64,000 bases of DNA, taken from positions 25,367,456 through 25,431,455 of the forward strand of contig OZ024875.1 in the NCBI GenBank assembly GCA_964017185.1. Reading direction: 5' to 3'. This document shows positions 9,601 through 18,600 of the stretch, in pieces. The notes below the pieces were generated by a model that worked only from the letters and a program-made list of their open reading frames with translations, was not told where the DNA came from and did not search any database. This DNA comes from Rugalucina vietnamica (taxonomy: Eukaryota; Mollusca; Bivalvia; Lucinida; Lucinidae). How positions within the stretch are numbered: position 1 is the first letter of the stretch; every line of letters begins with the position of its first letter. Made by a program: the position numbers and the translations under genes.

Positions 9601-12600
9601 CCAGCGGTACAGTCACTAACTCAGATAATCTGGTAAAGATATGTGTACTTTTTTATTTGATGATCTAAAATATAAACACATTTTGCTAATCAAAAATACT
9701 TTATTGCAAGTGTGTGTGAGGCGTGTGTGGATGCTAGCTAAAAAAAAGTACAGTTTTAGCAAATCTGCATAGGAAATGGAAAATTATTAGCAAATTAGGA
9801 ACTGAAGGAGTATTATCCCTTATTTCTATCTACTACTGCTGGAATGAGCTACAGGGTGACTAAGAAGTCTCTTTCTGCATCTATTTAACAGAGGAAATAG
9901 TGAAAAGGTTAAGAATAATAGGCAAATCTGAAATTCCAGCCAAAACTTTTCCTAAATTTTCTTGAGAGAAAAGAAACTTTATGGGCGGTATGGCCCATCC
10001 CCTTTCTCGTTAATAATATCGTCACTGCTCTTAAAGGATCTGTTTTATTTTTATTTGCTATTACTGCAGCTGGTGTTGTGCCGTGTAGCGGCCCTAAAAT
10101 GTCTCCCCGTACATCATCCATAGTGCAGATTATATTTTCCTTTTGGTCCTCTGAGATCAGCGAAAGTATTCTGAGAAATCAGAAAATTATTGTTGGTTAG
10201 ATTCATTTTCTAATCATAGTTTTATATATTTGGCCCCATTTGGATTTTATTAGTCTTTGTCAAGACTACACTGTTGAAAGATGCAAAATTGCAGTAATTC
10301 TCTTTGGCTCCATGTTGCCAAATCTATAGGGTCACAGAAGAAGCTTAAGTAGCTGAAACCGTGGTATGGCCCATCCCCTTTCTCATTAATATCTTCACTG
10401 CTCTTAAAGGATCTCAGTTTTATTTTTATTCTCCATAAATTCTATGACTAGCTTGGACCTTGACTACTGTAGTGATGAAAACTGTTAATATATGAAACAG
10501 AGGATGAGGGTTGATCACATTTTTGGAACCCTCACAATACCTAAGCCTTTAAAACCTGAAAGGGCTGAGTGTCAACTTCATGCCAGATCAGAATCTATAG
10601 ATTTGTTAACTGGGACTTGCTCTGTGTAGCTCACCTGGTATTGGAGAACTCCAGACTGATTACATTGAATATTTTATCTCTGTTTGGACTGTTATAGTAG
10701 TCCGTCCATTCCCTCATCAACATTTTGTAATCTTCTTGTTTAGAGACATCAATTACGTCAATTTCGCGCATAGAACCTACAGGAAAATACAGCAGTCTTA
10801 CATGTAAACCATTTATGTCATAGGGTTCCAATAACACTGTTCAGTGACTTTTTTAACTTAGAGACTAGGCTAAATACTGTATGTGATATTTCCCTGAAAA
10901 CTTTCCAACCTTCCCTGACATTAGGGTCTCTGTCAGACTCGGCTCATGTTTTTGTGAACTTCCACTGCGACACATCAAACAGAATTTGAATTTCATTAAC
11001 ATGATTAAAAAATAAGTTTTATCTACATAAAATATGATTGCAAAATTACTTGACATTGAAAAAATCTGTTGCCAAGACTTTTTTTTATACATGGTGACTC
11101 CGAGTTAGTATGAATCTATCATATAATTATAAGTGATCAACATTTTTCTTCTGATTGAAGCTCATATAAATCACCTAGACCACCTACCCACAAGGTCCTC
11201 AACATCTTGTATGGTAAAACTTGGTGGTGGTACTGTCATTCCTAGCCCATCTTTCTTGTCAACCAGTATGGGTAGACTGAAACCATTCTCCTCAAACACA
11301 GACTTGGTGAGAAGTCCACCAGGCATATGGAGTACTGGGATCTCATCCCCTCTATATATACAAAAATAGGGGTCAGTGAATATCATCCAGGCATACAGAG
11401 TACTGGGATCTCATTCACTCTATACATACAAAAATACGAGTCAGAGAATATTACCCAGGCACACAGAGTACTGGGATCTCATTCCCTCTATACTTACAAA
11501 CACAGGAGTCAGAGAATATCACCCAGGAATACAGAGTACTGGGATCTCATTCCCTCTATACTTACAAACACAGGAGTCAGAGAATATTACCCAGGAATAC
11601 AGAGTACTGGGATCTCATTCCCTCTATACTTACAAACACAGGAGTCAGAGAATATCACCCAGGAATACCGAATACTGAGTTCTCATCTCCTCTTAATGTA
11701 CAAACATAGGAGTCAGAGAATATCACCCAGGCATACCGAATACTGGGATCTCATCTCCTCTGAATGTACAAACATATGAGTAAAAAAATATCACCCAGGC
11801 ATACCAAATACTGGGATCTCATCTCCTCTGAATGTACAAACACAGGAGTCAGAGAACATCACTCAGGCATACGTAGTACTGGGATCACATCTCCTCTGAA
11901 TGTACAAACACAGGAGTCAGAGAATATCACCCAGGGTTCTGATCTCCTCTATACATACAAACATAGGAGTGAGAGAATATCACCCAGGCATACAGAGTAC
12001 TGGGATCTCATTCCCTCTATACATACAAACACAGGAGTGAGAATATCACTCAGGCGTATGGAGTACTGGGATCTCATCTCCTCTATATATACAAACACAG
12101 GAGTCAGAAAATATCACCTAGGCATACGGAGCACTGGGATCTCACCTCCTCTGAATGTACAAACATAGGAGTCAGAGAATATCACCCAGGTATACGGAGT
12201 ACTGGGATCACATCTCCTCTGAATGTACAAACATAGGAGTCAGAGAATATCACCCAGGCATACCGAATACTGGGATCTCAACTCCTCTGAATGTACAAAC
12301 ATAGGAGTCAGAGAATATCACTCAGGCATACGGAGTACTGGGATCACATCTCCTCTGAATGTACAAACACAGGAGTCAGAGAACATCACTCAGGCATACG
12401 GAGTACTGGGATCACATCTCCTCTGAATGTACAAACACAGGAGTCAGAGAATATTACCCAGGGTTCTGATCTCCTCTATACATACAATCATAGGAGTCGG
12501 AGAATAATACTCTGGCATACAGAGCACTGGGATCTCACCTCCTCTGAATGTACAAACATAGGAGTCAAAGAATATCACCCAGGCATACGGAGTACTGGGA

Positions 12601-15600: not shown

Positions 15601-18600
15601 GCATAGGAGTCAGAGAATATTACCCAGGGTTCTCATCTCCTTTATACATACAAACTATACATATAAACATAGGAGTCAGACAATATTACCCAGGGATCTC
15701 ATCTCCTCTATACATATAAGCATAGGAGTCGGAGAATATAAATACCCTGGCATACAGAGCACTGGGATCTCATCTCCTCTTTACATATACATGTAAACAT
15801 AGGAGTCAGACAATATTACCCAGGGATCTCATCTCCGCTATACATACAAACATAGGAGTCGGAGAATATAAATACTCTGGCATACAGAGCACTGGGATCT
15901 CATCTCCTCTATACATATAAACATACGAGTCAGAGAACATTACCCAGGGATCTCAACTCCTCTATACATACAAGCATAGGAGTCGGAGAATATCACCCAG
16001 GCATACCGAATACTGGGATCTCATCTCCTCTATACATATAAGCATAGGAGTCAGACAATATTACCCGGGGTTCTCGTCTCCTGCAAGTTTATCTTATCTG
16101 CTTGAAAGCCAAGTGAACATTTTTTCCTTCTTGATATGACTCAAAGTCATCTAGGAAGTACTGTCTTTGTTTGATTTCAGGGTAAATATGAAAATTTATT
16201 TTATACCTTCATTTTTCTTTTTGTTTGTTTGTTTGTTTATTTAAATTTCAATGTCTGCTTCTTCAATGAGAAAATGTCCATGCATTGTATAAAATAAAAA
16301 GAAAATTTAATTTTATTCAGTGAGAAATACCAAATATTTTTTGATCATGCATGTTGAAAACATGGAAATTTTCACTCATTCTGCACAACAAAATAAATGA
16401 AATATATTTGGTATTCACCTCAAAAAAGTACATTATCCCCTATTTATATTGTAAGATTTGGGTAAGGACATAACACACCGTACAACCGGCGCCTTTGATG
16501 ACAGATTATTAACATTGATGACAGACGAATTGTTTTGGTTCAATAAGTAGTTGGGTGATGTTTTTTGATTTTTAAACATTCTCAGAGAAATCCTCTGGTG
16601 TTGTGTGACTGGTAATTTAACTTGTAGATGTCTAAAGAGTTTACAGACACATGATGAATATATACCTGTCACTATTAAGGCCAAACTTGGTCATCGTTAC
16701 AGCGTTTTCACAAGAAAAGTCATGGAAATTGGTTACCTGCTCAGGGCTGGCGTCTTTCTATTGTTTTTTGCTGAATTTACTTATATACAATAAAACTTCT
16801 ATCATTTAACTACATTTCTGCCAAATCTGAATCCCCAGTTCGACAATGTAAAACCAGAGGACCAATGGTCCTGTAAACGCTCACCTGAGATCAGCTGCAT
16901 ATACCAATAAACATGTTTGAATATTATGGTATTTAACTCCAGTGCAGGGGCAGATAAGCCCTTGGGCCATTTTCTTTTTTCAGAATCTTCAATATTCTGT
17001 CCATTTGCCAATTTCCTGTTGGCTTTTTCCTTCAAATGACATTTTAACAGTTTTCCCAATTCAGATGCACAGGCAACCCATGTTGACCTTGCCATAAACT
17101 TGGTCAAGGTCATCACAGGGTCATGATTTATATATACATTGGAGTACTTTAGCCATCGATGCCTCACGCCAAGTTTCCTTGAAATCAGTCTATTGGTTTC
17201 AGAGAAGATGATTTTTGATGGGTTTTTACCATATATGGGCATGGCGGCCATCTTGGTCATGTGACCTAGATTATTTATATACACATTGATTCCCCCATTC
17301 TATAGATGCTTCACTTAAAATTTGGCTTTGTTTGGCCAAGCGGTTTCAGAGGAGAAGACGTTTGAATATTATGGAAATATACATGTATATTGCCCCGGGG
17401 TGGGGGCACATGAGCCCCTGGAGTCCAATTTTTTTCAGAATCATTAATATCCAGTCCTACTGCCCATTTCCTGCAAGACTTTCACTTTAAATGACATTTT
17501 AAAAGTTTTCCCCATTCAAATGCATTGGTGACCTATGTTGACCTTCCCGTAAAATAGGTCAAGGTCATCACAGGGTCATGATTTATATACACATTGTAGT
17601 GCTTGAGCCATCGATGCTTCATGCCAAGTTTCGTTGAAATCGGTTAACCGGTTCTGGAGAAGAAGATTTTTGAACGGTTTTTACCATATATGGGCATGGT
17701 GGCCATTTTGGTCATGTGACCTGGATTTTTTATATACATATTTGTTACCCCTTCCTATTGATGCTTCACATAAAATTTCGCTTTGATTGGCCAAGCGGTT
17801 TCAGAGGAGAAGATGTTTGAATATTATGGAGATATACATGTATATTGCCCCGGGGTGGGGGCGGATGAGCCCCTGGTGCCCAATTTTTTTCAGAATCATT
17901 AATATTCAGTCCTACTGCTCATTTTCTGCAAGATTTTTCCTTTAAATGACAATTTAACAATTTTTCCCATTCAAATGCATTCGCGACCTATGTTGACCTT
18001 GCCGTAAAATAGGTCAAGGTCATCATAGGGTCATGATTTATATATACATTGTAGTGCTTGAGCCATTAATGCTTCATGCCAAGTTTGGTTGAAATCGGTC
18101 CAGTGGTTCCGGAGAAGAAGATTTTTGAAGGGTTTTTACCATATATGGGCATGGCGGCCATCTTGGTCATGTGACCTGGATTATTTATATATACATTGGT
18201 TCCCCCTTCCCATAGATGCTTCATGTAAAATTTGGCTTTGATTGGCCAAGCGGTTTCAGAGGAGAAGATCTTTGAAAATGGTGGACGACGGACGACGGAC
18301 GGACGGATGGACGGACGGACGACGGAGCATGGGTATACTATAAGCTCACCTTGTGAGCCTGACGGCTCAGGTGAGCTAATAACAATTTTTCCCATTCAAA
18401 TGCATTCGCGACCTATGTTGACCTTGCCGTAAAATAGGTCAAGGTCATCATAGGGTCATGATTTATATACACATTGTAGTGCTTGAGCCATTAATGCTTC
18501 ATGCCAAGTTTGGTTGAAATCGGTCCAGTGGTTCCGGAGAAGAAGATTTTTGAAGGGTTTTTACCATATATGGGCATGGCGGCCATCTTGGTCATGTGAC

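Follow-up and report, generated by a model that had tools for sequence, protein, structure and literature searches.

The KDM7/PHF8 locus and its two arrays

This study concerns two tandem arrays, here called array 1 and array 2, which repeat intron-exon boundaries within a KDM7/PHF8-type histone demethylase gene. The gene lies on the minus strand of the window, a 64-kb stretch on contig C7 of a 1.09-Gb genome whose genes mark it as that of an animal. Its nine exons, which run from 28,618 down to 3,569, were spliced in silico into one stop-free frame, and residues 1-386/388 of the product aligned to the chains of PHF8 (E 1e-154), KDM7 (1.6e-150) and PHF2 (2.3e-140). The PHD finger, linker, JmjC domain and helical domain were colinear with those of PHF8/KDM7, which places the gene in this class. 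The PHD finger was called by motif and alignment only, Pfam covering half a finger, and the JmjC domain and the JHD were found separately. The features of the gene and of its arrays are the following:

Near 34,213, minus strand: first PHD exon (motif only)
28,699-28,769, plus strand: lone inverted array 2 unit, within an apparent copy of a dispersed repeat (82% over query positions 111-183)
28,533-28,618, minus strand: second PHD-finger exon (motif and alignment)
25,142-25,200, minus strand: linker exon (joined frame and alignment)
24,647-24,705, minus strand: exon 4, ending with TC, donor TTC/GTAAGC
11,387-16,064, minus strand: array 2, 71 full units, mostly of 68 bp (tandem-repeat search and unit alignment)
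11,352-11,386, minus strand: spacer of the authentic junction, with AT in place of the units' GT and an acceptor score of 8.61
11,188-11,351, minus strand: exon 5, the authentic copy (164 nt), which stands at the near end of array 2 and starts A/GGG GAT GAG
10,635-10,776, minus strand: exon following exon 5, ahead of the JmjC domain proper
9,428-9,629, minus strand: JmjC-region exon
8,917-9,167, minus strand: JmjC-region exon
8,265-8,371, minus strand: exon that is the authentic copy heading array 1, donor GAG/GTGAGT
3,955-8,314, minus strand: array 1, about 80 units of 55 bp, copies of the end of the exon at 8,371-8,265 with its donor
3,569-3,663, minus strand: exon downstream of array 1

Across the exon 4/5 junction the product aligned with PHF8, KDM7 and PHF2 without any cassette; a single extra residue lies a short way inside exon 5. 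The join at the array 1 exon aligned to PHF8/KDM7 without a gap. Exon 5 gave a single match in the genome search, and eight of the ten host-gene exon regions, each compared with the window, had no duplicate elsewhere in it. A second KDM7 gene was sought as a control and set aside, given this single match of exon 5; the locus with PHD and JmjC matches at C7:26.56 Mb proved to be of KDM5 type.

Array 2 lies in intron 4, just upstream of exon 5, and with a Tandem Repeats Finder score above 5000 it is real and far beyond chance. At its far end it runs out into a degenerate partial unit that reaches about 16,084, and at its near end stands the true junction, at 11,351. Read on the minus strand, a typical unit consists of a 35-nt spacer, with GT at its start, a branch-point-like CTGAC and AG, followed by 33 nt from the start of exon 5. 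The first-pass annotation had described the unit as a branch point, an acceptor and an exon start, and this architecture was recovered in the 71 units. The uniformity was not: units are 68 bp for the most part only, and the branch-point motif is CTGAC in 46 of the 71 (CTCAC in 10, CCGAC in 6, TTGAC in 4 and others in 5). The acceptor ends TATAG (32 units) and TTCAG (31 units), which had been placed in every unit, account for 63 of the 71 and leave the remaining eight aside, and AG is missing at the modelled place in two units. The spacer has the proposed 35 nt in 61 of the 71 units, the rest being of other lengths. The exon-like part is indeed 33 nt in 59 units; ten units carry 18 nt, owing to a frame-keeping 15-nt deletion, and in the other two it is irregular, with aligned lengths of 31 and 26 nt. 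This part had been given as equal to the start of exon 5, which proved incorrect, as none of the 59 parts of 33 nt is identical to exon 5 and the match is 26-30 of 33 bases (mean 28.7). Lastly, GTGATA was expected after each unit. All 71 unit spacers start with GT and the spacer beside exon 5 starts with AT, so that GT follows 70 of the 71 units; GTGATA is the commonest donor hexamer (42/71), but it is not universal.

A dispersed origin of the array 2 unit was considered and rejected, as the genome search, which skips very common words, returned nothing beyond the array itself except one inverted copy at a distance of 12 kb. This inverted unit, at 28,699-28,769, has the appearance of having been placed there by template switching.

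Array 1 is the donor-side counterpart of array 2. It nearly fills the intron after the exon at 8,371-8,265, and its unit consists of the last part of that exon together with the GTGAGT donor. At the downstream places GT is present in 68 of 80 copies and missing in 12. The genome search, with the same treatment of very common words, located array 1 nowhere else.

Reading frame, variation and splice signals of array 2

The units of array 2 might be spliced as in-frame micro-exons of 33 nt (or 18 nt), with neighbouring units skipped so that the introns reach at least 103 nt, and the PHD-JmjC stretch would then gain n x 11 residues. Two codon bases (TC) close exon 4 at 24,647, the first base of exon 5 is the A at 11,351, and the 33-nt parts leave two bases again, which bears out the phase that the first-pass annotation had given. 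For the modelling of cassettes we used 69 of the 71 units and dropped the two in which AG was absent at the modelled place. All 69 modelled micro-exons were open and in frame, 68 ending at GT and one at AT, and frame-neutral inclusion is therefore possible on paper, as had been proposed. The branch-point motif and acceptor found in most units, and the frame-keeping deletions of 15 nt and 3 nt, also speak for micro-exon use. When a modelled unit was used without its GT, a stop followed after 7 codons (10 units), 12 codons (52 units), 33 codons (5 units) or 34 codons (2 units).

Coding constraint on the exon-like part, looked for as a mark of working micro-exons in variant classes and in diversity, was not found. 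The variant test covered 53 clean 68-mers of the 71 units, the remaining units differing in length, and with equal rates the neutral expectation is 25% synonymous, 72% replacement and 3% stop. In the exon-like part of these 68-mers, 28 distinct variants were counted: 8 were synonymous and 20 replacement, with no stop, where neutrality predicts about 7, 20 and 0.9. Per-site diversity (pi) in the same set was no lower in the exon-like part (0.140) than in the spacer (0.115); invariant columns numbered 11 of 33 in the exon-like parts (59 sequences) and 17 of 35 in the spacers (61 sequences). The lack of stops was discounted as evidence of selection, since 3 of the 99 single changes in 33 nt give a stop, and it is unremarkable because about 0.9 would be expected among 28 variants. 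Selection on the 11-residue peptide was rejected on the basis of the neutral variant classes.

Splice sites were scored with approximate weight matrices, and all donor and acceptor scores in this text rest on them. The 71 unit donors scored from -6.8 to 5.5, and none of them has G at position +5. The nine scored host-gene donors ranged from 3.15 to 11.5, with +5 G in eight. The lack of +5 G in the unit donors argues against their use as micro-exon ends; however, with a score of 3.15 the donor of exon 4 is itself hardly stronger than the commonest unit donor, at 3.14, which favours such use. In addition, the 35-nt spacer is probably too short to be spliced out, and neighbouring units therefore could not be joined. 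The point of insertion would also fall in a fairly conserved stretch, FPS/DEI.

An array of the same design in a KDM5-type gene, described below, has an exon-like part of 67 nt to GT, which is not a multiple of three. Because that array is not frame-neutral, the frame neutrality of array 2 is probably a 1-in-3 accident. Taken with the neutral variants, the unit donors and the canonical join that aligns without a cassette, the KDM5 array leaves the proposed use of the cassettes as micro-exons unsupported. Such use is unlikely on the sequence evidence, and we hold the micro-exon reading as a whole to be very improbable. The same can be said, in even stronger terms, of a mutable "ruler", in which skipping among the roughly 70 frame-neutral acceptor cassettes would add 6 or 11 residues at a time between the KDM7 PHD finger and JmjC domain; we find this scarcely credible. 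If it were true, an unstable minisatellite would vary the reader-to-eraser spacing between cells, alleles or individuals, and, with array 1, one gene would have both acceptor and donor cassettes. The case also cautions against reading use into a repeat solely because it is open, frame-neutral and derived from coding sequence.

Origin and meaning of the boundary arrays

We consider it likely, with a probability of about 0.8, that array 2 is a "mirage", meaning a neutral, unstable minisatellite of the junction with functional splicing to 11,351, and not a working set of mini-exons. In both arrays the tandem unit spans the intron and the exon of an adjacent real boundary, and AG or GT is present in many copies, not in all (GT in 70/71 for array 2 and 68/80 for array 1). 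As to whether exon 5, the end copy, escapes homogenisation, the units match it at 87% on average (28.7/33), similar to the match among the units themselves (pi 0.140).

The array would have been founded when a segment spanning the boundary of intron 4 and exon 5 in the KDM7/PHF8 gene was duplicated in tandem; acceptor, branch point and coding start were already part of that segment and so recur in the copies. The GT after the exon-like part probably came from the join itself, where exon 5 has CCTG/GTGGA and the unit CCTGG/GTGATA. Exon 5 goes on with TGGAC after CCTGG, and the short GTG match may have primed the first slippage. Unequal exchange or slippage would then have brought the array to about 71 copies. 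These appear to have drifted and to have been homogenised as a group, and no selection is visible on either the peptide or the frame. In the functional mRNA exon 4 is presumably joined to 11,351, as the conservation of the protein suggests. Stray use of a unit without its GT would lead to truncation before the JmjC domain, and such transcripts would probably be destroyed.

Later growth by blocks is visible in recent block duplications within array 2, whose longest stretches of at least 97.5% identity are 860 bp at a lag of 597 bp, 940 bp at 1448 bp and 660 bp at 2113 bp. In this one assembly, such duplications point to copy-number instability between haplotypes. Near-identical blocks are, at the same time, hard to assemble, and some of the blocks, at lags of 597 and 1448 bp, could be pieces duplicated in the assembly; the copy number may be inexact. 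However, 36 distinct sequences occur among the 53 clean 68-mers, arrays of other units are present at other genes and the flanking exons are intact. We thus regard an assembly artefact, with repeats collapsed or multiplied, as extremely unlikely.

Several observations weigh against a neutral mirage. GT, AG and 13 other columns are invariant in the 61 spacers of 35 nt, and the place of GT and AG among them could also be counted in favour of micro-exons. The chance that GT and AG all fall in invariant columns is about 0.045, which weakly leaves some room for constraint on the splice letters. The two exonic length changes with a simple reading (-15 and -3) preserve the frame and the spacers carry -1 and -2, although these changes are too few to test; an irregular unit at 15,689-15,624, with a displaced AG, was left out of the count. 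Finally, the unit acceptors are about as good as most host-gene acceptors, and some mechanism, exon definition for example, would have to account for why all 71 upstream acceptors stay silent. The donor of exon 5, 164 nt past the exon start, has a +5 G, which no unit donor offers, and may be a means by which the right start is chosen.

Alternatively, the array could act as a splicing decoy or poison element, whose upstream acceptors would compete with 11,351 and cause an early stop and decay, KDM7 output being lowered or tuned by copy number. The units lie upstream of exon 5 and are transcribed first, and the 69 scored acceptors range from 1.7 to 8.5. Used without GT, every one of the 69 modelled units stops within 7-34 codons, 62 of them within 12. 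Array 1 is alike, as GT at each of its 68 places would give a stop if used. However, the authentic exon 5 acceptor, at 8.61, stands above all 69 (best 8.52), the +5 G of the exon 5 donor has no equivalent in the units, and there is no sign of selection keeping the copies. Amphioxus mirages, too, are reported not to disturb splicing. A decoy role seems to us rather unlikely.

The name "mirage" is reportedly owed to a 2002 amphioxus paper. Introns are also said to be gained by tandem duplication of AGGT-bearing exon segments, for example in potato RdRp. There, as here, a tandem duplication makes spare splice sites inside a gene; in contrast, the duplicated piece here straddles a boundary already present, with a 35-nt spacer, and the protein stays whole without any new intron position.

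Amphioxus mirages occur in Adh3, in the globins BflGb6 and BflGb9, and in troponin C and PGBD5 (PMC3087553, PMC3902484; the last two genes in PMC3902484). BflGb6 haplotypes hold 3 and 6 mirage copies, and splicing is said to be left undisturbed, with reverse-transcription PCR (RT-PCR) suggesting that it is normal (PMC3087553, PMC3902484). The amphioxus cases and ours share tandem copies of an intron-exon boundary on the acceptor or donor side, AG or GT in many copies, an authentic exon at one end and turnover of the tandem copies. They differ in copy number, about 71 and 80 here against 3 and 6 in the BflGb6 haplotypes. Here, moreover, a single gene has both boundary sides repeated, array 2 has a frame-neutral exon-like part, and the animal is probably not amphioxus, given the mitochondrial gene order described below. 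Another point of comparison is a mollusc minisatellite with a 27-bp unit, in intron 3 of an abalone TSSK1-like gene (PMC6905558). It resembles our arrays in being intronic, and its copy number is variable; its unit is not known to hold a splice site or exon sequence.

No boundary minisatellite outside amphioxus was found in the open-licence PMC literature, covered mostly at listing level. The arrays fit a known kind, the mirage; their copies are unusually numerous, they affect two boundaries of the same gene, and the animal is probably not amphioxus. The mirages in the literature that we found come from cephalochordates only and have few copies. Arrays of 71 and about 80 copies, with those in the KDM5-type gene and in a third JmjC gene, suggest that a genome that is probably not of a cephalochordate makes mirages repeatedly and at scale. 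Such arrays offer a natural test of how splicing settles on the correct site when dozens of near-identical ones lie close by, and also of whether boundary repeats feed intron gain or new exons.

Boundary arrays and other repeats in the genome

Boundary arrays are not peculiar to the KDM7/PHF8 gene. Two further genes contain them:

L051:4409-5510 (C7:26,562,408-26,563,509): KDM5-type gene, 11 tandem 100-bp copies, the authentic one included, of an acceptor and exon start
L006:2496-2916 and L006:1634-1828 (C10:1.17 Mb): JmjC gene, three copies of an acceptor and exon start, and one duplicated exon end with its donor

The KDM5 array lies 1.2 Mb from the host gene and was located at that one place only in the genome search. 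Its copied exon, GVCEAEREAFELLPDDERQC, matched JARID1C (E 1.2e-6), and GT is absent in one of the 10 extra copies. Both this array and the three-copy array on C10 came from a tandem-repeat search of 73 loci, and not from the self-comparison, which covered 68 loci (8 JmjC, 30 PHD and 30 RRM) and counted direct duplicates that overlapped the match or lay within 60 bases of it. Five of the 68 loci had a direct duplicate (L003, L006, L008, L021 and L023), a figure that is not a rate, as loci overlap and many PHD loci resemble mobile elements. On reading, the duplicate at L008 was that of a whole exon, the one at L003 looked like the same, and those at L021 and L023 were decayed. At L008:1505-1607 and 1705-1807 (C15:21.94 Mb) two similar exons (GHQENNNFC...) stand side by side, each with its AG and GT, and this tandem exon duplication could be a mutually exclusive pair.

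Within the window, the 41-bp tandem arrays at 43,857-44,984 and 53,343-54,470 read as each other's reverse complement at a distance of about 10 kb, with short inverted motifs on their flanks. The pair looks like a large element with repeat-bearing ends, and a related 41-bp array is found at 59,231-61,050. Contig C47 is mitochondrial, with COX1 and, just upstream of it, NAD4L, an order that differs from that of chordates and speaks against amphioxus. The dispersed repeats are reminiscent of those of a bivalve, and contigs C1 to C17 gave matches at megabase positions. Upstream of both mitochondrial genes, C47 has an open frame of about 198 codons under code 5 (L085:233-826). Among the 150 scored matches listed genome-wide, many of those to PHD fall in open frames of about 1,090-1,280 codons that are repeated on many contigs and probably represent a mobile-element family with a PHD-like finger.

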